From positions 1 through 46,131 of IMG/VR virus record IMGVR_UViG_3300031825_000255: DNA of 46,131 nucleotides; one strand, 5' to 3'. The position numbers were made by a program, and so were the translations under genes. Under the pieces are notes generated by a model, which worked only from the letters and a program-made list of their open reading frames with translations, was not told where the DNA came from and did no database searches. Positions 5,702 through 46,131 of the stretch are shown piece by piece; position 1 is the stretch's first letter; every line of letters starts with the position of its first letter. Source of the DNA: a virus.

Positions 5702-6901
5702 CTAGCGTTGCGCCAAAGCTATACAGTAAGAATAAAAAAATAGCAAGCCTTCTAATCGCGACTGTATGAAATCCAAATTACCTGATAATCCTTTGCTAAA
5801 CATTTCGCTCGACTTTAAACCAAATAAAATGAATGGATCCATAACTTGGGTGAAAGGAATTCTATCGTGATACAAGGAAATGTGCGGAATGTTAGTCGAT
5901 AGCACTGGCGCATCATTGACTTTTACTGCCAATGCTGATGGTGCGGTAGCATTGCCCTGCCCAATATTTGCAGAGATTCGATCCATGAGCACTAGATCCT
6001 CTCGCAATGTTATTTGATAATAACCGTTAATATGGCTATCTTCCAATACCGCTACGTCAACTTTTCCGCCGCTAGGCGAGTGTGCAAATTTTCTTCTTAA
6101 TAAAGTAATGCTTGGCTCAATAGGTTTTACGCCATTGATTTTAAGACCACTATCAGAAATGTATTCTGACTCTTTGTAGTGCTCGACTCCGAGGTTGTTA
6201 TGCAAATAGAAAGGCTGGTCGGTATTAAATCTAAGATCCACAGCGCCATGGGTGACATTTATCAATGCTGGAGTGGCAGCCAGGCCGATGGCAAGCGGCT
6301 GACTTATGTTGACCCCAAACCAAGGTTCGTCATAAGGATGCATTAAAGTGTCATTCATCACTATTATATAGTACTCATTACCTGTAATCAGTCCCTTTTC
6401 AAGGTAACGTAAATAATCCTCTTTCTTCCGATTTATGGCTGATGCTATACGTAAACACCTGTGGTTATACATTTTCGCTGGATCAGCAGAGCTGTTTCTT
6501 CCTTGACAAACCCATTCAAAATGCTCTGGGTCTGGCGTTGGCGTCACTACTTCAAAACAGTAGCTTTTCCCTTCTTTTTTGGCGAAAAAATCTGGTCCTT
6601 CTGACGCACTTGATATTTCTGTAAAACCACTCCTTAGAAGATGATAATAAAATAAAATCTCCGACATCCTCTGCTCATAGCTATGTCCTGATTGCATGAT
6701 TTGCTTATTGAAGTGCTTATCTTTAAAGGGGCGAAAAGCTTGATATATACTTGCTAATCTTTCAACGGCCTCTTCGATTAATAAGGCTACTACAGTTTCA
6801 TGTTTGCCTGAGCAAAAGAACCGCATTCTTCTTGATAAGACGTCAAGCCACTTCTCTTTTAGATAGGCTTCACACTCTTCATCAGTAACTCGCTTTGCCA
6901 T
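5702..6901 (-). CDS. unknown accessory protein with a possible nuclease-like core
   Basis: A 399-aa protein that I cannot place in a known family. Residues about 70-125 contain a helix (YEQRMSEILFYYHLLRSG) and then SEGPDFFAKKEGKSYCFEVV. This resembles the Asp...beta-hairpin...Glu core of PD-(D/E)xK nucleases, although the usual ExK Lys is absent (EVV). The C-terminal half is rich in aromatics and beta segments and ends in a hydrophobic helix (LEGLLFFYSYCIALA). Base composition is clearly more AT-rich than the structural genes, indicating recent acquisition. It is transcribed alone on the minus strand, within the zone that is active in lysogens. A defence or exclusion role is possible but unproven. 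Confidence 0.85.
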   Translation of the reverse strand: MAKRVTDEECEAYLKEKWLDVLSRRMRFFCSGKHETVVALLIEEAVERLASIYQAFRPFKDKHFNKQIMQSGHSYEQRMSEILFYYHLLRSGFTEISSASEGPDFFAKKEGKSYCFEVVTPTPDPEHFEWVCQGRNSSADPAKMYNHRCLRIASAINRKKEDYLRYLEKGLITGNEYYIIVMNDTLMHPYDEPWFGVNISQPLAIGLAATPALINVTHGAVDLRFNTDQPFYLHNNLGVEHYKESEYISDSGLKINGVKPIEPSITLLRRKFAHSPSGGKVDVAVLEDSHINGYYQITLREDLVLMDRISANIGQGNATAPSALAVKVNDAPVLSTNIPHISLYHDRIPFTQVMDPFILFGLKSSEMFSKGLSGNLDFIQSRLEGLLFFYSYCIALAQR

Positions 6902-27162: not shown

Positions 27163-27819
27163 ATGAAGAAACGCAGCTTGATGAGTGCGCCGTTCGCTCA
27201 TTTGTTCGGCCTGGCTCCGCGGGCCGAAGAGGACGATCCGAAGTCGCGCAAGGCCAAGGTCCGCCGCGCCGAAGACGAGGACGACGACCCGGACGCCGAG
27301 GAAGACGAGGACGAGCCCAAGTCGAAGAAGGCCAAGGGCAAGCGCGCCGAGGACGATGAGTCGGGCCAGGATGCCGAGGAGGACGACCCGGACGCCGAGG
27401 AAGACGAGGACGAGCCCAAGTCGAGGAAGGCCAAGGGCAAGGGCAAGCGCGCCGAAGAGGACGACGAGGACCCCGATGCCGAGGAGGAGGAAGACGAGCC
27501 GAAAAGCGCTCGCGCGGCCGTTGCCGCCGACCGCCGCCGCTGCGCCAGGATCGTCGCCCACGGCCTCAAGCACAACAACGTCGAGCAGGCCTGCGTGTTC
27601 GCGTTCGACACCAATATGTCGGCGACCAGTGCGATCAGCGCCCTGAATGCCGCCGGCGCGGCCGGCGGGGCTCGGGGTGGCCGCAGCCGGCTGCAGGAGC
27701 GCATGGCCGCCGGAGCAGTCAAGCCGGTCGGCAGCGACGATGGCGACCAGACGCCGGCGGGCATGACCGCCACCGCCGCCGCCATCGTCCGCGCGGCAGA
27801 GCGGGCCCAGGGCCGCTAA
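27163..27819 (+). CDS. acidic repeat protein, probable scaffold (Nu3-like position)
   Basis: 218 aa from ATG 27163 (GAGGTACCCAC before it). Residues about 25-120 are an extreme charged region of alternating Asp/Glu and Lys/Arg blocks (DDDPDAEEDEDEPKS, KAKGKRAE) repeated about three times. The C-terminal 90 residues are a helical Ala-rich domain (RRRCARIVAHGLKHNNVEQACVF in two pieces) that looks conserved. By position after the protease it should be the scaffold. The charged part carries a 60-bp DNA duplication. Confidence 0.8.
   Translation: MKKRSLMSAPFAHLFGLAPRAEEDDPKSRKAKVRRAEDEDDDPDAEEDEDEPKSKKAKGKRAEDDESGQDAEEDDPDAEEDEDEPKSRKAKGKGKRAEEDDEDPDAEEEEDEPKSARAAVAADRRRCARIVAHGLKHNNVEQACVFAFDTNMSATSAISALNAAGAAGGARGGRSRLQERMAAGAVKPVGSDDGDQTPAGMTATAAAIVRAAERAQGR
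27283..27441 (+). repeat. 60-bp direct duplication in the scaffold-like gene
   Basis: 27283-27342 and 27382-27441 are identical except one A/G difference, 99 bp apart and in the same reading phase. The duplication extends the charged Asp/Glu-Lys region without frame change and could easily expand or contract. Confidence 0.8.
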
Positions 27820-33373: not shown

Positions 33374-33498
33374 TCGCCGAGCTGACCAAATTCTACGGCT
33401 GGGGGCCACGCGAGGCGTGGTCCCTGACCCTGGGCGAGCTGGACTGGTGGAACCGCCAGGCCCTGCGTATGGAGGGGCACGGGAATGGCCAACAATAG
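33298..33498 (+). CDS. tail assembly chaperone C-terminal extension, -1 frame
   Basis: In the frame one base back from the 33080-33373 gene, an open stretch runs from 33298 to a TAG at 33498 and encodes LIAELTKFYGWGPREAWSLT, then LGELDWWNRQALRMEG. This resembles gpE'/T-type extensions. It has no start codon or ribosome site of its own. A T-run (TTTT, 33328-33331) within the overlap is a candidate slip point. It overlaps the tape-measure start by 14 nt. Confidence 0.7.
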   Translation, partial: SGTCQCVPRVFYQRWPAGGGGWPELIAELTKFYGWGPREAWSLTLGELDWWNRQALRMEGHGNGQQ

Positions 33499-35425
33499 CT
33501 TCACGATCACCATCAGCGCGGTGGACAAGGCGACGGCTACCGTTCGCAAGGTCAACCAGGCCATCGACCGCCTGACCCGGCCTTTCACCCAGGTCGGCAA
33601 GTCGTTCAAGGGATTGGGGCGCGAGCTGGGCTTTGACCGGATCGGTCGGGACCTGGGTCATATCGGCCGCGAGGCCGGTAGCGCGGCGCGCGGGATCGGT
33701 TCGATCGTCGCGCCCATGGCCGCCATCACCAGCGTCGGCTCGGTGGCTGGCATTGCCGCCCTGGCCGACAACTGGGCCCGACTGGGGCGCTCAATCGACA
33801 ACAGCGCGGCCGGTATCGGCATTTCGACCGGGCAGCTGCAGAGCTTCCAGGGCGCCGCCCGGCTCGCGGGGATCTCCAGCGAGACGATGACCGGCAGCCT
33901 GGATGCACTGGCGACCACCATGCAGAACGCCAAATGGGGGCGGGATCAGGGGGCGCTGCTGCTGTTCAGCAAGCTCGGCGTCAGCATGGACCGCACGGCC
34001 AAGGGCAGCAACGATGTCGTCGGCGCATTCCGCTCCATTGCCGATGCCATCGGCAAGGAGACCAACCCGCAGGTGCAGGCGCTGATCGCCAACCGCCTGG
34101 GGCTGGGGGCCATGCTGCCGTTCCTGCGGCAGGGATCGGCCGGCATCGCCGAGTATCAGGTCACGGTCCAGCGCCTGGGCTACGTGATGAGTGACGAGGC
34201 GGTGCAGCGCTCGAAGGCCTTCGCGCTGAGTCTGGCGGGGCTAGAGATTGCCATCGAGGGCACGAAAAACGCCATCGGCGATGCGCTGATTCCGGCGATC
34301 AAGCCGCTGGCCGATCAGTTCGCCACCTGGATCGCCCAGAACCGCGAGCTGATCGCCATCAACGTGGGCGAGTGGGCGGGAGGGTTCGCCCAGTGGGTCA
34401 ACGGCATCGACTGGAAGGGCGTCGGCCAGGGGATCAAGGACTTCACCAGCGGCATCGGGCAGATCGTCGACTGGCTGGGCGGCTGGAAAAACGCGGCGAT
34501 CGCCTTGGCGATAACGATGAATGCCGGACTGATCGTCAGCGTCGCCTCGCTCGGCCTCGGCGTGGCCAAGGCCGGGGTAGGCGTGCTGTCTTTCGTCGGG
34601 CTGCTCTGGAAGTGGCAGGCCGCCGCGAAGGCCGCGCTCGCTGCCCAGGGGGCGCTGTCCGTGGGCGCCGCTGTGGGAGGATTGGCCGCTCAGGCGGGCC
34701 TCGTCGGCTTGGCCGGCCTGGCCGGCTATGGGGTCGGCACGCTGATCAACGACAAGCTGCTCTCTGGAACCAAGGCTGGCGACTGGATTGGCGATAAGGT
34801 CGCGCGGACCGCGGCTTTCTTCGGTGTCGATGAAGCCAAGGCGGCCGTCGAGGCGACGGATCGCGCCAAGGCCCTGGAGAAGTTCAACAAGCTGGAGTCG
34901 CAGTTCCGCCTGCCGTCCGGCCTGCTGGACAGCATGTGGAGCAAGGAATCGAGCCGTGGCACGAACATGGTGTCGCCCGCCGGCGCGCGCGGGCACTTCC
35001 AGTTCATGCCCGATACGGCCAAGCAGTACGGGGTGCGCAATCCGAACGACCTGGATCAGTCGGCGGCCGGGGCGGCGCGGATGATGCGCGAGCTGCTCGA
35101 TGCCAATGGCAACAATCTGGATCGAGCGCTGGCCGGCTACAACTGGGGGCAAGGAAACCTCTCCCGCAAGGGCCTGGGTGCTGCGCCGACCGAGACCGTC
35201 AATTACATCCGCGACGTGAAGGCCGGTATGGCGGGCGCTTCCGGTAATGGTCCTGCACCGCAGGGGCCGATCACGGGTAGGGACGTCCAGGCGCAGAACA
35301 GCAAGATCCAGCTGGAGGTCGAGCTGAAGAACGCGCCGGAAGGCACCAAGGCCCGTGTCAAATCGACGGAGGGCATCCCGGTGTCGAGCCGCATTTCGCT
35401 GACAGGCGTAGGAGGAATCGCATGA
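33485..35425 (+). CDS. tape measure protein with lytic transglycosylase domain
   Basis: 646 aa. N-terminus NSFTITISAVDKATATVRKVNQAI is typical of Mu-type tape measures. The middle has long helices and several hydrophobic stretches (VGSVAGIAALADNWA, AIALAITMNAGLIVSVASLGLG). Residues about 473-580 are an SLT lysozyme-like domain: LPSGLLDSMWSKESSRG with catalytic Glu about 488, GHFQFMPDTAKQYG and YNWGQGNL. The protein sets the tail length and probably opens peptidoglycan during DNA entry. The small size implies a short tail. Confidence 0.92.
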   Translation: MANNSFTITISAVDKATATVRKVNQAIDRLTRPFTQVGKSFKGLGRELGFDRIGRDLGHIGREAGSAARGIGSIVAPMAAITSVGSVAGIAALADNWARLGRSIDNSAAGIGISTGQLQSFQGAARLAGISSETMTGSLDALATTMQNAKWGRDQGALLLFSKLGVSMDRTAKGSNDVVGAFRSIADAIGKETNPQVQALIANRLGLGAMLPFLRQGSAGIAEYQVTVQRLGYVMSDEAVQRSKAFALSLAGLEIAIEGTKNAIGDALIPAIKPLADQFATWIAQNRELIAINVGEWAGGFAQWVNGIDWKGVGQGIKDFTSGIGQIVDWLGGWKNAAIALAITMNAGLIVSVASLGLGVAKAGVGVLSFVGLLWKWQAAAKAALAAQGALSVGAAVGGLAAQAGLVGLAGLAGYGVGTLINDKLLSGTKAGDWIGDKVARTAAFFGVDEAKAAVEATDRAKALEKFNKLESQFRLPSGLLDSMWSKESSRGTNMVSPAGARGHFQFMPDTAKQYGVRNPNDLDQSAAGAARMMRELLDANGNNLDRALAGYNWGQGNLSRKGLGAAPTETVNYIRDVKAGMAGASGNGPAPQGPITGRDVQAQNSKIQLEVELKNAPEGTKARVKSTEGIPVSSRISLTGVGGIA

Positions 35426-39708: not shown

Positions 39709-39729
39709 ACCGCCGCCAGGCGGTTTTTT
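39709..39729 (+). terminator. hairpin with T-run before the gp47 gene
   Basis: ACCGCC-GCCA-GGCGGT followed by T6, 16 nt after the gp46 stop. Probably a partial terminator, as the tail operon continues. Confidence 0.65.
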
Positions 39730-39745
39730 GTTTCTGGAGTTTCCT

Positions 39746-40876
39746 ATGCCATACCCGCGCCCCTCGCTCTCCGAGCTGCGCGCCCAGGCGGCGGCAGATA
39801 TCACGGCTGGTTTGCCGACTGCCGACGGTCTGCTGCGTTTCAGCAACCTCAAAATCATCGGAACCGCCGTGGCCGGCATGGCCCACCTGAACTACGGCTA
39901 TCTCGACTGGATCGCCAAGCAGGCCTGTCCCTACACCGCAACCGGCGAGTTCCTGCGCGCTTGGGCGGCGCTGAAAAAGGTCTACCCCAAGCAGGCCACG
40001 GCCGGGCACGGGCAGGTCACGTTCCTCGGTGCAGTCCCAGGCACGCTGATCGATGCTGGCACCGAGATCGTCCGCGGGGATGCGGTGGCCTATACCGTCG
40101 ACGAAACCGCGACTGTGGCGAGCGACGGTAGTGCGGCGCTGTCCGTGACCGCCGTCAATCCGGGGGACGCAGGCAACACGCCGGCCGGCACCCAGATGAC
40201 GCTGGGGTCAGCCATCAACGGCGTGCCTTCGACCGGCGCCGTGACGGTCACGATCACCGGCGGCGCCGACCAGGAGAGCGACGAATCCTTGTTTGCGCGC
40301 ATGCTGGAGGCCTACCAGAAGCCACCGAATGGCGGATCGAGGGATGACTATGTCGCCTGGGCCCTGGCTATTCCGGGCGTGACCAGGGCCTGGTGCAACC
40401 CAGTGGGATTCGGCGCCGGGACCGTGGTGGTCTATGTCATGTTCGACGAGGCTAACGCGGACTATGCGGGTTTCCCCCAGGGCAGGGATGGCATTTCCGC
40501 GAGCGACAACCGTGTGACGGTCGGCAGTGTGGCCGCCGGGGATCAGCTGACCGTCGCCGACAGTATCTTCGCCGTGCAGCCGGTCACGGCCATGGTCTAC
40601 GTGTGTAGCCCAATCCCGCGGCCTATCGACTTTGTCATTAGCGGTCTGGGTAGCGCATCGATCGCCACACGCACGGCCATTGCTGCTCTCATTCGGGAGG
40701 CTTTCATCGAGTATGGATCGCCGCTCAATGACGGCAGCATCGTGCCTCTGTCGGCCATCGAATCGGCCATCTCGGCGATCTCTGGAACCGTGGGCTTTGT
40801 GATCGAGACCCCGGCCGGAAACATTGCCAACACCCTCGGCTACCTGCCCGTCTTGGGCGATATCACCTACAGCTGA
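39746..40876 (+). CDS. baseplate J-like protein (Mu gp47-like)
   Basis: 376 aa from ATG 39746 (TCTGGAG seven bases upstream). It shows the Baseplate_J pattern: PSLSELRAQAAADITAGLP, FLRAWAALKKVYPKQATAG, GDAGNTPAGTQMTL, QESDESLFARMLEAYQKPPNGGSR split around DDYVAWALAIPGVTRAW. It connects the wedge ring to the fibres. Confidence 0.95.
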   Translation: MPYPRPSLSELRAQAAADITAGLPTADGLLRFSNLKIIGTAVAGMAHLNYGYLDWIAKQACPYTATGEFLRAWAALKKVYPKQATAGHGQVTFLGAVPGTLIDAGTEIVRGDAVAYTVDETATVASDGSAALSVTAVNPGDAGNTPAGTQMTLGSAINGVPSTGAVTVTITGGADQESDESLFARMLEAYQKPPNGGSRDDYVAWALAIPGVTRAWCNPVGFGAGTVVVYVMFDEANADYAGFPQGRDGISASDNRVTVGSVAAGDQLTVADSIFAVQPVTAMVYVCSPIPRPIDFVISGLGSASIATRTAIAALIREAFIEYGSPLNDGSIVPLSAIESAISAISGTVGFVIETPAGNIANTLGYLPVLGDITYS

Positions 40877-40881
40877 CGCCT

Positions 40882-41418
40882 ATGAAACCATCCTTTTCCA
40901 GTGCGGATTTCACCTCCGCGCTGCTCGGGCTGCTGCCTCGCGGTCGAGTCTGGTCCAGGGACCCGGGCAGTGTTCAGGTCCAGACGGTGGCCTGTTTCGC
41001 GCCGACCTTCCAGCGTCTGAGCGACAGGGCCGTGGGGCTGTTGGATGACGCCTTCCCGGCAACGGCCGGCGGTCTGCTGCCCGAGTGGGAAGCCACGCTT
41101 GGGCTACCCGATCCCTGTGCTGGGCCTTCGCCTACCCTGCAGGCGCGGCGCAATCAGGTGGTGGTTCGTCTGACCAACAACGGCGGTCAGTCCATCGCCT
41201 ACTTCGAGTCCTTCGCAGCGGGGCTCGGTTACGCCGTGACCGTCACGCAGTATGCCCCGTTTCGTTGCGGGCAAAGCGCCTGCGGTCAGCAGCTGGGCGG
41301 CGAGGACTGGTTTTTTACCTGGGCCATCAATGCCCCTCTGGCGGGAAATCCCATCCTGAGTTGCGAGCTGCGGACGGCGCAGCCGGCCCACACCATTCTG
41401 CAATTCCACTACGCGTAA
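40882..41418 (+). CDS. baseplate protein (Mu gp48/YmfQ-like)
   Basis: 178 aa: LLGLLPRGRVWSRDPGS at the N-terminus and LLPEWEATLGLPDPCAG in the middle are diagnostic of the YmfQ/DUF2313 family. The C-terminal part has FRCGQSACGQQLGGEDWFFTW. It is the outer wedge part to which the tail fibre attaches; the fibre gene follows after 13 nt. Confidence 0.93.
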   Translation: MKPSFSSADFTSALLGLLPRGRVWSRDPGSVQVQTVACFAPTFQRLSDRAVGLLDDAFPATAGGLLPEWEATLGLPDPCAGPSPTLQARRNQVVVRLTNNGGQSIAYFESFAAGLGYAVTVTQYAPFRCGQSACGQQLGGEDWFFTWAINAPLAGNPILSCELRTAQPAHTILQFHYA

Positions 41419-41431
41419 CACGCGAGGATCT

Positions 41432-42700
41432 ATGTATCGAATCGACGTGCCGTCAGCAGCGACGGATCTGCCCGCCAGTACCCCCGAGGGTCGACCGGGA
41501 TTCTTCACCGACGGGAATCCAGCGATAGGCGAGCCAGCCACCATCGTGCCAGCCGAGTGGCTGAACATGATCATGATGGAAATCCTGAACGTGGTCACCG
41601 CGGCCAATATCGGCCCCCTGAAAAGCGACAACACCCAGTTGCTGAAGGCGATCAACTGGATTGCCACGCCTACCCGCTGGAAGGCGGTAGCCAGCGGCTA
41701 TGTGGCCAAGCCGTGGGACTTGCTCATGCTCAACAACCGCGTGGACTCGCCCACCTTGCTCCTGCCCGAGGCGCCGCTCTACGGCCAGGAGGTGCGGGTA
41801 ATGCCGTATCCCTACACCCAATACAGCCGGTTCCCCGTGACGGTGGACGGCAACGGGCACCCCATCATGGGCCTGAACGAGACGATGGCCATCAACGAGG
41901 ACAATGTCATGTGTTCCTGCAAGTTCCTGGGAGCAATCAAGGGCTGGCTGATCGAAAAGATGGGCTATTCGGGCAATTCGTTCACCATCGACAACTACAC
42001 GGCGCGCGCTTACGGACCCAATGCCATCCAGAAATTCGACGCGCGTATCGTCAAAGGGGCGCCGTTGGTGATGATGGTCCATGGCGGCGGATGGGTCTCT
42101 GGCGATCGGGCGGCGGCTAACCTGGGCGGCGGGGTCTATCTCCAGCAGTTCCCGGATCAATATGGCTTCGGCTTCGCGTCCATCGAGTACACGCTCGCCG
42201 ACGCCTCGAACCACTCCTACCCGACGGCCGTCAATGACGTGATCGCCGCCGCGGACTATTTCAAGGCCACGCTCGGCGTTACCGACATCCACATCCTGGG
42301 CACGTCGGCCGGTGCCAATCTGGCCGCGCTAGCGGTGATCGCCCGGCCGGATCTGTTCTCCTCATTCATCGGCTATTACGGCGCCTACGACCTGACCAAG
42401 CTGAGCGAATTCTCCGTCGACGTGCAGACCGACATCGGCTACTTCGCTGCCGACCCGTCCGCTGCCAGTCCTGCGCTGCAGGCGGGGACTTGGAACACGC
42501 CGTCCCTCCTGATCCACGGCGATGCGGACACGACGGTCAATATCCAGCAGACCCTCGATTTCGGGGCGGCTATCGGGGTGAGCCCCATCACGGTTGCCGG
42601 GGCGGCGCATGCATTTCCGATCTTTGGTGATCCTGCGGGCGTGTTGCCCGATTTTGCCAAGTCCGTATTCAAATTTATCGATGGGGTGACTGAGAAGTGA
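41432..42700 (+). CDS. tail fibre with C-terminal alpha/beta-hydrolase (esterase) domain
   Basis: 422 aa. Residues 1-80 are a fibre attachment region of the type seen in Pseudomonas phages (MYRIDVPSAATDLPAST, EWLNMIMMEILNVVTAANI). Residues 80-175 are a short shaft (RVMPYPYTQYSRFPVTVDG). From about 185 to the end the protein is an alpha/beta hydrolase: oxyanion motif HGGGW (217-221), nucleophile Ser292 in GTSAG, Asp366 in HGDAD, and His393 in GAAHAF. All three triad residues are in the right order, so it should be active, probably removing acyl groups from the surface polysaccharide that serves as receptor. Family analogy is to carbohydrate/acetyl esterases; the substrate is inference. Confidence 0.9.
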   Translation: MYRIDVPSAATDLPASTPEGRPGFFTDGNPAIGEPATIVPAEWLNMIMMEILNVVTAANIGPLKSDNTQLLKAINWIATPTRWKAVASGYVAKPWDLLMLNNRVDSPTLLLPEAPLYGQEVRVMPYPYTQYSRFPVTVDGNGHPIMGLNETMAINEDNVMCSCKFLGAIKGWLIEKMGYSGNSFTIDNYTARAYGPNAIQKFDARIVKGAPLVMMVHGGGWVSGDRAAANLGGGVYLQQFPDQYGFGFASIEYTLADASNHSYPTAVNDVIAAADYFKATLGVTDIHILGTSAGANLAALAVIARPDLFSSFIGYYGAYDLTKLSEFSVDVQTDIGYFAADPSAASPALQAGTWNTPSLLIHGDADTTVNIQQTLDFGAAIGVSPITVAGAAHAFPIFGDPAGVLPDFAKSVFKFIDGVTEK

Positions 42701-43668
42701 GTTTTTTTACGGATTTCTTTCCGCAGAGTGGACAAAGCGGGCCCAATAATGCCGCTGGCGGTAATATCTTCGCGGGTATTAGGCCACCGAAGTTTGCAAG
42801 TTTCGGAAACAGCGAGAACTTTTCCAAGGCCGGCAACTGGATGACGGAGAACTTCGTCATTCCCAACCACCTCGGTTATATCCTCGGGATCAACTTCGGC
42901 TACAAAGTCACTGTCGCGACGTGGAACAACACGCTCGTCTGGTACGTTACCGACGGGAGCTTGGGGGCAAACTCGGTAATTAGCGCCCTGATCTATAACC
43001 AGGTGCTGGATAAATGGTACATCTCCTCGACTGGCGCGTTTGTCGGCGTATATGAGGTGAATATCCTGACCGGCGCTCGCACATTGGTTACGCCTACCGT
43101 CCCCGCATTCCTGGCTCAAGCGTTTCCGAACTATGCCTGCCTCTCGTACTGCAATGCCGAAGGGCTCTATGAGTGGCGCGACGGCAATACCATCCGCAAA
43201 TACTCCCAGAATTTCGTGGAAGTGCAGAATCGGGCGTTCGTCGCGGCGAACAACGTCAACGACGCGAACTGGTACTACACCGAGGACTGCAAGATTCGGG
43301 CGCAGTCGATAACCAGCTGGAAGGGGCAGGGAACCTCGAACACTACCACGGTGACCCCCGTCAGTCCTCGGCTACTGATCGAGCGCTACGGTAGCCGCCG
43401 GTTGGTCGATCTGACCGCGGCGATGGTCTTCAGCGCCAGAAACGACGACCTATCCGCCTCGAACATGACGCCCATGGTGCCCACCATGTCGACCGGAGCG
43501 TTTCTGGGAAACGCGGTTCGACTCGGGGTTTACGCCCGAGATGTGAGCGTGATTGCCGACCCCTACCTCCTGGACCGCGTGGATTATGACCGCTGGCTGA
43601 GCGACGTCGCCGACGCACTGGGCATGCCGGATGCTCCGGCCTTCTATGGAGACTGGACCAATGTCTAA
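42697..43668 (+). CDS. second tail protein, probable receptor-binding or fibre-tip protein
   Basis: 323 aa from a GTG that overlaps the fibre stop (GTGA). It is rich in aromatics, Asn and Ser with long predicted beta stretches (LGYILGINFGYKVTVATWNN, LIYNQVLDKWYISSTGAFVG, YEWRDGNTIRKYSQNFVEVQ) and resembles the C-terminal, variable parts of fibres or surface-binding proteins. I know no family for it. Coupling to the esterase fibre suggests that both are needed in equal amounts, perhaps as a tip or cofactor. Confidence 0.75.
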   Translation: MSFFTDFFPQSGQSGPNNAAGGNIFAGIRPPKFASFGNSENFSKAGNWMTENFVIPNHLGYILGINFGYKVTVATWNNTLVWYVTDGSLGANSVISALIYNQVLDKWYISSTGAFVGVYEVNILTGARTLVTPTVPAFLAQAFPNYACLSYCNAEGLYEWRDGNTIRKYSQNFVEVQNRAFVAANNVNDANWYYTEDCKIRAQSITSWKGQGTSNTTTVTPVSPRLLIERYGSRRLVDLTAAMVFSARNDDLSASNMTPMVPTMSTGAFLGNAVRLGVYARDVSVIADPYLLDRVDYDRWLSDVADALGMPDAPAFYGDWTNV

Positions 43669-44092
43669 ATTCGTTTCGTTCCCGCTGCAGCAGGATGACC
43701 TTCGGATCGTCTACCCGGACGATATCGCACTGTTCGCGGACACGGTCGTCGATGGCGAGACTGTTCATGCCCGATACCTCGGCGCCCTGGATCTGTCTCC
43801 CTCGGACTATTTCCGCCAACAGCTGGCAGCCAGCGCCATCCAGAACATCAAGGCTGCCGCGTTCGTGGCGATCAACGAACTCGACGGCGAGGGCGGCTGG
43901 CGTCGCCAGAGGGCCGACGACAAGAAGGCACTGGGGGACTCGACGCTTTTCGATCAGTTGCTAGCCAGTCGAGAGGCCATCCGCTCCCGCTCCAATGACC
44001 TGGAAGCGGAAGTGGCGGCGATGACGTATGACGAACTGCTGGCGTTCGATCCGCTGGCCGACCTGCGGAAGGCCGCAGGTCCCCAGCTGTAG
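43661..44092 (+). CDS. tail fibre assembly-like protein
   Basis: 143 aa from ATG 43661, overlapping the previous gene by 8 nt. A beta-rich N-terminus (FVSFPLQQDDLRIVYPDDIA) precedes a helical C-terminal part with the pattern common to fibre chaperones (GGWRRQRADDKKALGDSTLF, SNDLEAEVAAMTYDELLAF). Position after the fibre genes fits a chaperone or a cap protein. Homology is not certain by eye. Confidence 0.6.
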   Translation: MSKFVSFPLQQDDLRIVYPDDIALFADTVVDGETVHARYLGALDLSPSDYFRQQLAASAIQNIKAAAFVAINELDGEGGWRRQRADDKKALGDSTLFDQLLASREAIRSRSNDLEAEVAAMTYDELLAFDPLADLRKAAGPQL

Positions 44093-44197: not shown

Positions 44198-44671
44198 ATG
44201 ACCCTTTCCGAGATCCGCGCTGCCGCCATCAAGCCAGCGCTCGCGCTGATGCCTATGCGTATGACCAGCCCCCAGGCGGAAATCCAGTTGCTCGCCATCG
44301 GCCTGCAGGAGTCAGGATTCGCCGCCCGTCATCAGCTCGGCGGGCCCGCCCACGGCTTCTGGCAGTTCGAGCAGGGCGGCGTGCGCGGGGTGCTACAGCA
44401 TCCGCAGAGCCGGGCCCAGGCCATGGCTATCTGCGTAGATCGAGGCGTCGAGGCGGACGCAGCATCCGTCCATGCCGCGCTCGAGCATGATGACATCCTT
44501 GCCGCGGCATTCGCCCGTCTGCTGTTCTGGATTGATCCGTCTCCGTTGCCTGCGGTAGGGGACGCAGGACGGTCCTGGGATCTGTACCTGCGCACCTGGC
44601 GGCCGGGCCGGCCCCGACGCGATAGCTGGGATGCCTTCTATGCCAGGGCGGTTGGCGAGGTATCGCCATGA
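44198..44671 (+). CDS. putative endolysin (lysozyme/transglycosylase-like)
   Basis: 157 aa from ATG 44198 (TGGAGATCCC upstream). It has the Glu-containing motif LLAIGLQESGFAARHQLGG followed by GFWQFEQGG, the arrangement of lytic transglycosylase-like phage muramidases (catalytic Glu then GxxQF). The helical C-terminus ends WDLYLRTWRPGRPRRDSWDAF. No signal peptide, so it depends on the holin. The stop overlaps the Rz start. Family assignment is by motif and position. Confidence 0.75.
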   Translation: MTLSEIRAAAIKPALALMPMRMTSPQAEIQLLAIGLQESGFAARHQLGGPAHGFWQFEQGGVRGVLQHPQSRAQAMAICVDRGVEADAASVHAALEHDDILAAAFARLLFWIDPSPLPAVGDAGRSWDLYLRTWRPGRPRRDSWDAFYARAVGEVSP

Positions 44672-45210
44672 GCTTGACCGATCTGATCCCTGTGCAATAC
44701 CGGCTGCTGGCCGCCGGCGGCATCGCCCTGGCTCTGCTGCTGGCCGGCGCCGCTGCGGGATGGGCTGTCAATGGATGGCGTCTTGGTCGGGAGTTCGCAG
44801 CTATCAAGCAGCAACACGCCGAGCAGCTCGCCAAGAACGAGCAGGTGGCCAATGCCGCCTTCCGCGAGCAGCAGCAGGCCCGCCAGCAGCTCGAAAACAA
44901 ACTCTCACTGCTCGACCAGCAGCGCTATGGAGAACTGCAGAATGCCCAAGCCAATACTGATCGCCTGTCTGCTGATCTCGCTGATGCTCGTCAGCGGATG
45001 CGCGTCACCATTACCGCCAGCAGCTGCCAGCAACTGTCCGGAGCAGGAAAAGTCGCCGGCGCCGACCGCGTGGATGATGGAACCATCACAGTCGAACTTC
45101 TCCCAGCGACTGCAGCAGATCTTGCCCGTCTCGCCGGAGACGCAGACGCCTGTGCAGTGAAACTGACCGCGCTGCAGGGATGGGCACGGGAGATTACGAA
45201 GGGGGATTGA
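44668..45210 (+). CDS. Rz: i-spanin (Rz)
   Basis: 180 aa. One N-terminal transmembrane helix (LLAAGGIALALLLAGAAAGWAV, about residues 9-32) and then a long coiled coil (FAAIKQQHAEQLAKNEQVAN, EQQQARQQLENKLSLLDQQR) followed by a small periplasmic domain with two Cys. With the nested Rz1 it spans the periplasm and fuses the membranes at the last step of lysis. Start overlaps the endolysin stop (ATGA). Confidence 0.88.
   Translation: MSLTDLIPVQYRLLAAGGIALALLLAGAAAGWAVNGWRLGREFAAIKQQHAEQLAKNEQVANAAFREQQQARQQLENKLSLLDQQRYGELQNAQANTDRLSADLADARQRMRVTITASSCQQLSGAGKVAGADRVDDGTITVELLPATAADLARLAGDADACAVKLTALQGWAREITKGD
44942..45160 (+). CDS. Rz1: o-spanin lipoprotein (Rz1), nested in Rz
   Basis: 72 aa in the +1 frame entirely inside Rz; the ATG at 44942 follows GGAGAACTGC. 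Signal peptide MPKPILIACLLISLMLVSGC has the lipobox LVSGC with the lipid-modified Cys at residue 20, followed by a Pro-rich periplasmic segment (ASPLPPAAAS). This is the classic Rz1 design. The larger open frame from 44771 is only the frame extension. Confidence 0.85.
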   Translation: MPKPILIACLLISLMLVSGCASPLPPAAASNCPEQEKSPAPTAWMMEPSQSNFSQRLQQILPVSPETQTPVQ

Positions 45211-45392: not shown

Positions 45393-45485
45393 CGGATTGC
45401 AAATCCGTGTACGCCGGTTCGATTCCGACCTCGGCCTCCACTATGAAAGCCCCGTAGATTCAGGTCTACGGGGCTTTTTCATTTC
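45393..45485. repeat. attR: attR: right 93-bp attachment repeat with truncated tRNA-Cys
   Basis: Exact copy of 47-139. It carries only the 3' 48 nt of tRNA-Cys (no 5' acceptor strand or D-arm) and the terminator hairpin (45447-45480), so it makes no tRNA. Since a second integrase follows directly, this copy also looks like attL of the neighbouring element. Confidence 0.95.
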
Positions 45486-45510
45486 TGCACCAAAGCCGTG
45501 TTATTGCATT

Positions 45511-45534
45511 AGTTTTCACACGCGTGCGAAAACT
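45511..45534. other. imperfect 24-bp palindrome next to the second integrase
   Basis: AGTTTTC-(10 bp)-GAAAACT with the self-complementary core CACGCGTG. It lies 25 bp right of the att repeat and 5 bp before the stop codon of the second integrase, the position that holds TTTCCACT-type sites in the first element, so it may be the arm-type site of element 2. Confidence 0.4.
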
Positions 45535-45538
45535 TTCG

Positions 45539-46131
45539 CTATTTCGATGGCTTGGCGATGGCGCCGACGCGCCGATAGACACGCTTGGTAATGCCTTCGG
45601 TCGAGTGCCCGAGCAGAACGCTTGCGTCTGACAAGTCTCGAATTTCGCTGGCAGCCTTTGGCCGGATATCCCGGAACTGGAACTGCCTGATCCTCACAGC
45701 CAGCTCTTGCTCACCAGCTTCTGCTGCCTTGATGGCAGCCGACTCACGAGCATCGTCCCAGCGATTCCGAAGCATCGGCCATGACACGCGCTGGCCGCGT
45801 CGGTTGATGACCAGGAACGGCGAAAGGTGCTCGACATTCCCTTTATTGATCCTCTCGACCAGCTTGCCGAGGCTGTTGGGTTCGCCATCGACCTCGACCT
45901 GGATGCGCAGTTTCTTGTCGGTCTTTCCCTGCCGCACCAGCAGGTAGCCGTCGACAATGTCGTCGCGGCGCATCGCGAGCACGTCAGCCGGTCTTTGGCC
46001 GGTTAGCAGAGCCAGATCCATGGCATCACGTAGCTCATGGCAGGCCTGCGCATAGACCGCTTTCCAGACTGCATCATTGGCGTAGTAGTCGCGCGGTTTT
46101 TCCTTGTTCTTGCGTACCCCTTGACAGGGGT
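45539..46131 (-). CDS. int: second tyrosine integrase, partial (continues past the window)
   Basis: The C-terminal 197 residues or so of an integrase; the frame is open to the window end (PCQGVRKNKEKPRDYYAND at the edge). Catalytic residues: Arg in LTGQRPAD, Lys-rich QGKTDKK, Arg in FRDIRPKAASE, His in LLGHS and Tyr in RVYRRVG. It is clearly homologous to the first integrase (both share GQRPAD, MRNRWD/LRNRWD, IRPKAASEI and VYRRVG) but not a recent copy. It lies 54 bp from its att repeat against 56 bp for the first, in the same orientation. Confidence 0.93.
   Translation of the reverse strand, partial: PCQGVRKNKEKPRDYYANDAVWKAVYAQACHELRDAMDLALLTGQRPADVLAMRRDDIVDGYLLVRQGKTDKKLRIQVEVDGEPNSLGKLVERINKGNVEHLSPFLVINRRGQRVSWPMLRNRWDDARESAAIKAAEAGEQELAVRIRQFQFRDIRPKAASEIRDLSDASVLLGHSTEGITKRVYRRVGAIAKPSK

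Follow-up and report, generated by a model that had tools for sequence, protein, structure and literature searches.

Phage fibers that carry a deacetylase of the SGNH family have been described in several systems. The fiber gp63.1 of coliphage G7C deacetylates O-antigen, and two SGNH fibers from Klebsiella prophages hydrolyze p-nitrophenyl acetate (PMC13123978). According to PMC11058221, gp41 of Acinetobacter phage Aristophanes is an SGNH-hydrolase deacetylase fiber or tailspike, and the tailspikes of Moo19 and B2 have esterase activity as well (PMC11654681). Virion-associated lipases have also been predicted (Pires et al. 2016, cited in PMC5380687); these were experimentally unvalidated as of PMC5380687. 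The founder of the BD-FAE family of esterases strips acetyl and feruloyl groups from xylan, and its authors caution that neither family nor fold predicts catalytic function confidently (PMC8165983). Among fiber adapters, TSP4 of phage CBA120 contains an XD1 domain (residues 80-178), a trimeric beta-sandwich that apparently serves as a spacer (PMC8825819).

We analyzed a stretch of 46,131 bases (the window) that makes up IMG/VR virus record IMGVR_UViG_3300031825_000255. Its genes encode a lambda-type terminase and portal, a major capsid protein E and a contractile sheath. The baseplate genes (GpP, Baseplate_J and Gp48) are Mu-like, and there are integrases, a CI-type repressor and an antirepressor. 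Given these genes, we take the window to be a temperate contractile-tailed phage. The nearest relatives of its portal protein are those of Citrobacter phage phiNP, Serratia phage BZS1 and Acetobacter phage phiAP1. Related integrase sequences are found at both ends (47-770 and 45393-46108) and, at 67.6% DNA identity, they are two diverged integrase genes rather than terminal repeats. The tail region includes a 646-aa protein in the tape-measure position with a transglycosylase SLT domain (33485-35425). An Rz-like spanin gene (44668-45210) is overlapped by a frame at 44771-45160 that has a lipobox-like LISLMLVSGCASP and is therefore probably an embedded Rz1. A diverged short tandem repeat of ~100 bases, with 78-85% identity, lies at 27226-27503.

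Genes directly after Baseplate_J and Gp48 occupy the customary place for a phage fiber gene. The open reading frame at 41432-42700 (+ strand, 422 aa), which we found exactly as originally delimited, holds that place in the window. The features of the locus are as follows.

39728-40876, + strand: Baseplate_J gene, upstream context (PF04865, 6e-61)
40882-41418, + strand: Mu Gp48-type baseplate gene, upstream context (PF10076, 5e-29)
41432-41671, + strand: tail-attachment module, aa 1-80 (PHROG tail-fiber families, best 2.8e-15)
41672-41980, + strand: XD1-like adapter domain, aa 81-183 (similarity to CBA120 TSP4)
41981-42697, + strand: alpha/beta-hydrolase (esterase) domain, aa 184-422 (PF20434 BD-FAE, 2.2e-17; AF2 model; PDB fold matches)
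42080-42094, + strand: HGGGW oxyanion-hole motif, aa 217-221 (invariant in seven phage sequences)
42305-42307, + strand: predicted nucleophile Ser292 in GTSAG, aa 290-294 (alignment; between strand 286-291 and helix 293-304 in the model)
42527-42529, + strand: predicted catalytic acid Asp366 in HGDAD, aa 362-366 (invariant acid in the alignment of seven phage sequences)
42608-42610, + strand: predicted catalytic His393 in GAAHAF, aa 390-395 (alignment of seven phage sequences)
42697-43668, + strand: second cassette gene, 323 aa, proposed receptor-binding partner (GTG start overlaps the fiber-gene stop)
43661-44092, + strand: third gene of the cassette, 143 aa, with a proposed role in assembly (overlapped at its start by the second gene)
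41675-44079, + strand: exchanged cassette of adapter, esterase and the two following genes (the sole DNA match between the window and contig L003, 86.4% by blastn)

The N-terminal part of the protein points to a phage tail fiber, with a tail-attachment module at the fiber locus. Acetobacter phage phiAP1 and Bordetella phages, PY223 among them, have the same module (aa 1-80) in the same place, attached there to unrelated C-terminal parts. The segment that follows resembles the XD1 domain of the TSP4-type branched tailspike adapter: aa 82-176 match residues 100-176 of CBA120 TSP4 with an E value of 6e-7 (~1e-9 by profile). The match stops at TSP4 residue 176, where XD1 ends, and the tailspike-docking modules XD2 and XD3 are missing; the esterase comes next. 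The confidence of the AF2 model was low over aa 1-184, so assignment of the adapter fold rests on sequence likeness to TSP4. Another environmental phage (L007, 6037-6270) has an XD1-like segment with 33% identity and a GNGHPIMGLNE stretch in common; there the segment closes a 243-aa protein that lacks an esterase.

The C-terminal part is a complete alpha/beta hydrolase. Pfam matches to the domain were far beyond chance, with E values of 2.2e-17 for BD-FAE, 3e-11 for Peptidase_S9 and 1e-10 for Abhydrolase_3, and the BD-FAE score was 63.7 bits compared with a gathering cut-off of 26.8. The AF2 model had a pLDDT of about 90 over most of aa 190-400, and a search of the PDB with this model returned 1,458 fold matches at E<=0.001, down to 6e-13, including the BD-FAE crystal structures 6tkx and 6xyc. 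The fold and the Ser-Asp-His triad that characterize BD-FAE were thus found by model, fold search and alignment. The HGGGWV and GTSAGAN motifs, Asp366 and His393 are invariant in all seven aligned phage sequences. Asp366 rather than Asp364 is the predicted catalytic acid, being the invariant one in that alignment. The original prediction had described a fiber attachment domain joined to a full hydrolase, with the same four motifs and the same three residues, and had named a different fold, or related fibers lacking the triad, as findings that would count against it. Family matches, the confidently predicted hydrolase fold and the triad kept in the seven phage sequences all bear it out.

These results also speak to whether the domain is an enzyme at all. 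The hydrolase fold could have been retained purely for carbohydrate binding, as several fold relatives bind without hydrolyzing and the rice GID1 receptor was among the fold matches. We consider this very improbable, given that the triad and the oxyanion motif are complete and invariant across divergent homologs. The hydrolase part is under purifying selection, with a dN/dS of ~0.17-0.20 against two relatives.

No SGNH family was among the Pfam, PHROG or NCBIfam matches of the fiber reading frame, and the domain belongs with BD-FAE/Abhydrolase rather than with SGNH/GDSL. It is best explained as a predicted serine esterase of the BD-FAE or hormone-sensitive-lipase-like group of alpha/beta hydrolases. 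A fold of this kind cannot separate a lipase from a carbohydrate esterase, and the domain might instead be a lipase or phospholipase that attacks outer-membrane lipids, not sugars, to aid penetration. Lipases and carboxylesterases were among the top fold matches, and the best sub-threshold NCBIfam matches were to hormone-sensitive-lipase families such as LipP1. However, the NCBIfam matches were all far under their cut-offs and the best Pfam family is BD-FAE, whose founder is a carbohydrate esterase, making action on lipids improbable in our estimate. Xylan deacylation by that founder leads us to favor glycan deacylation over lipid hydrolysis, despite the authors' caution about predicting function.

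The same fusion of adapter and esterase recurs in two more IMG/VR contigs, at 70% over the full length in L002 and at 81% over the cassette part in L003. The 617-aa fiber of L003, a P2-like phage, begins with a P2-type tail-collar fiber domain (PF12571, 5e-58). When the window reading frames were compared with the whole 37.75 kb L003 contig, every match (E<1e-4) fell inside 41675-44079. These matches comprised the adapter-esterase and the proteins of 323 and 143 aa, along with overlapping frames. Because L003 shares nothing else detectable with the window, the adapter-esterase and the two following genes constitute an exchangeable three-gene cassette. In L002, the three cassette proteins are 68-72% identical to those of the window whereas the tail genes are 29-42% identical, indicating that the cassette has its own history. 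The cassette itself is mosaic, as dS between the window and L003 is unequal along it (0.60 in the esterase and 0.25 in the second gene). The best explanation is that the three genes, judged by their sequences, travel between unrelated phages as a host-recognition cassette. Scans of genome contigs found only cellular BD-FAE-like esterases and no prophage fusion.

Recurrence of the junction also bears on whether the fiber and esterase genes were joined by an error of assembly or annotation. The window is one environmental virus record, and the fusion is in no isolate of the phage collection. Nevertheless, we give an artefact almost no credence; it is already contradicted by the same junction in the two other contigs (70-81% identity), both with the two downstream genes conserved.

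The downstream genes appear to be partners of the fiber. The second gene encodes a protein with 93-94% identity to its counterpart in L003 and 69% in L002, and the third gene product has 86% and 72% identity, respectively. The original prediction had coupled the esterase fiber to the protein that follows it, a link that overlapping frames, joint transfer and a distant, similarly placed counterpart in two other phages now reinforce. The 323-aa protein matched no Pfam, PHROG or NCBIfam family. It had no match at E<1e-5 among 50,697 phage records, and a search with its profile came back empty for 369 genomes from a single class and 399 from a single order around G005. Profiles of the 323-aa and 143-aa proteins gave chance-level matches only against the PDB. 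A beta-propeller guess for the 323-aa protein, made from its strand pattern, was dropped, the AF2 model having a pLDDT of only 33. We propose that the 143-aa protein is an assembly factor, its position being the basis for this proposal.

Two other phages, L017 and L018, have what appears to be a split form of the same arrangement. In both, the baseplate genes are followed by an adapter-like protein, a 347-aa protein, a small gene and a separate 262-aa esterase. The adapter-like protein (167-168 aa) is 26% identical to aa 33-181 of the window fiber, and its end aligns with the end of XD1. This short protein had no PDB match and aligned weakly by hhalign, and its kinship to the window rests on the BLASTP E value of 3e-4 and on gene order. 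The 347-aa protein is the counterpart of the 323-aa protein (E 4e-6), with the C-terminal pattern DRVDxDRW...AFF. The free esterase is 33-35% identical to the hydrolase domain of the window, and its N-terminus, judged by eye, resembles a signal peptide; from its sequence, the enzyme is probably secreted. Two scans of IMG/VR that used the free esterases as queries recovered nothing beyond the query records themselves. In L017 the free esterase adjoins a class 3 lipase (5814-6527; PF01764, 1e-11), which places two unrelated ester hydrolases in a phage late region.

The esterase is fused to the fiber in three contigs and clusters with fiber genes in two more, a pattern that supports a functional link between them. 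The esterase could instead have a receptor-destroying role, acting mainly late, when it would deacylate the receptor glycans of debris and neighboring cells so that progeny are not trapped or superinfection is prevented, with carriage on the fiber being secondary. In favor of this, L017 and L018 encode the esterase separately, with its signal-peptide-like N-terminus and neighboring late genes of the lipase/amidase type, and a separate, probably secreted enzyme leaves room for a non-virion role of the enzyme family. In contrast, the three contigs that fuse the esterase to a tail-attachment adapter, one of them on a different fiber N-terminus, point to action from the particle, and we regard a mainly late role as unlikely for the window protein.

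No fiber with a BD-FAE-type hydrolase was found in 50,697 phage records, although absence from that collection does not equal rarity. A tblastn search of these records with the hydrolase domain (E<1) identified nine, none of which was among the listed records matched by the attachment or XD1 segments of the complete protein. Those of the nine that were inspected encode the esterase as a gene of its own. Several candidates were set aside: MT838141 and MT836767, which look like bacterial contigs; MW202657, in which the esterase gene stands by itself on the other strand, adjoining tail genes but unfused; and the 4A7 hydrolase, located in a replication/antitermination region. There was no Cellulophaga record among the tblastn matches at E<1, and hence no link to the predicted virion lipases. 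The 694-aa 'Esterase' of Arthrobacter phage Seahorse (BFVD A0A3G3M533) matches the modeled fold and could bear on novelty if it were a tail-protein fusion. A separate locus, L004 (3-10115; IMGVR_UViG_3300010354_000118), consists of one open frame, 3,371 aa or longer, that runs off both ends. By eye, it has an HGGGW hydrolase-like stretch, into which other sequence has apparently been inserted, and two subtilisin-like stretches.

We consider it reasonably probable that the protein, as a fiber or as a short side fiber or spike, is an esterase of the virion, which removes acyl groups from a surface glycan of the host during adsorption and is encoded, together with two partner genes, in an exchangeable cassette. 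The N-terminus of the fiber would dock on the baseplate of the Mu-like tail, and the XD1 module may act as both spacer and trimerizing adapter. A trimeric fiber would present several esterase domains. These virion-borne esterases would remove O-acyl groups, most likely acetyl, from the host surface glycan during adsorption. The 323-aa protein may serve in recognition as a receptor binder, and the product of the third gene may help assembly. Sequence and model supply the modules, the intact conserved triad, the hydrolase fold, the cassette exchange and the purifying selection; we infer presence in the virion, trimerization, the glycan substrate and the roles of both partner genes. The original prediction is thus supported in part. 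It was right about the hydrolase fusion and the link to the next gene; O-antigen or exopolysaccharide as the substrate, and a second tail protein as the partner, are possibilities that it raised; and it missed XD1, the third gene, the exchange and the split form.

Compared with CBA120 TSP4, the window fiber likewise has XD1 behind a baseplate-anchoring N-terminus. In TSP4, however, the modules after XD1 are XD2 and XD3, to which other spikes dock (PMC8825819), and in the window fiber the esterase comes directly after it. The hydrolase domain belongs to the same Pfam family as BD-FAE (PDB 6TKX/6XYC) and cellular PF20434 proteins, and like them it is a Ser-Asp-His alpha/beta hydrolase; BD-FAE acts on xylan as a free, secreted enzyme (PMC8165983), whereas the window domain is fused to a phage fiber. 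The predicted virion lipases are similar to the window fiber in being ester hydrolases predicted on phage virions.

SGNH deacetylase fibers share with the window fiber a tail-attachment N-terminus and a C-terminal esterase. By analogy, they also share the proposed deacylation of surface glycan that leaves the chain uncut. They differ in the catalytic domain, which in the window is a BD-FAE-type alpha/beta hydrolase with HGGGW and GTSAG. A broader view, which we put forward tentatively and do not hold firmly, is that BD-FAE-type fibers would be a class of virion enzymes apart from the SGNH deacetylase fibers. They would be accompanied by an assembly factor and by a new receptor-binding family, that of the 323-aa protein, be swapped across phage types at the XD1 boundary, and occur in fused (virion) and split (probably secreted) forms. 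The comparison suggests that an unrelated esterase fold was recruited for the job of the SGNH deacetylase fibers, in which acylated surface sugars are recognized or passed. The locus also illustrates clearly how an entire recognition cassette has moved, with a domain boundary as the joint, between contractile-tailed phages that are unrelated, and the fused and split forms offer a means to tell action of the esterase from the particle from action in the lysate. Esterase fibers are thus a known kind to which this one, encoded in an exchangeable cassette, adds a catalytic fold that is not SGNH and is not usually reported on phage tails.
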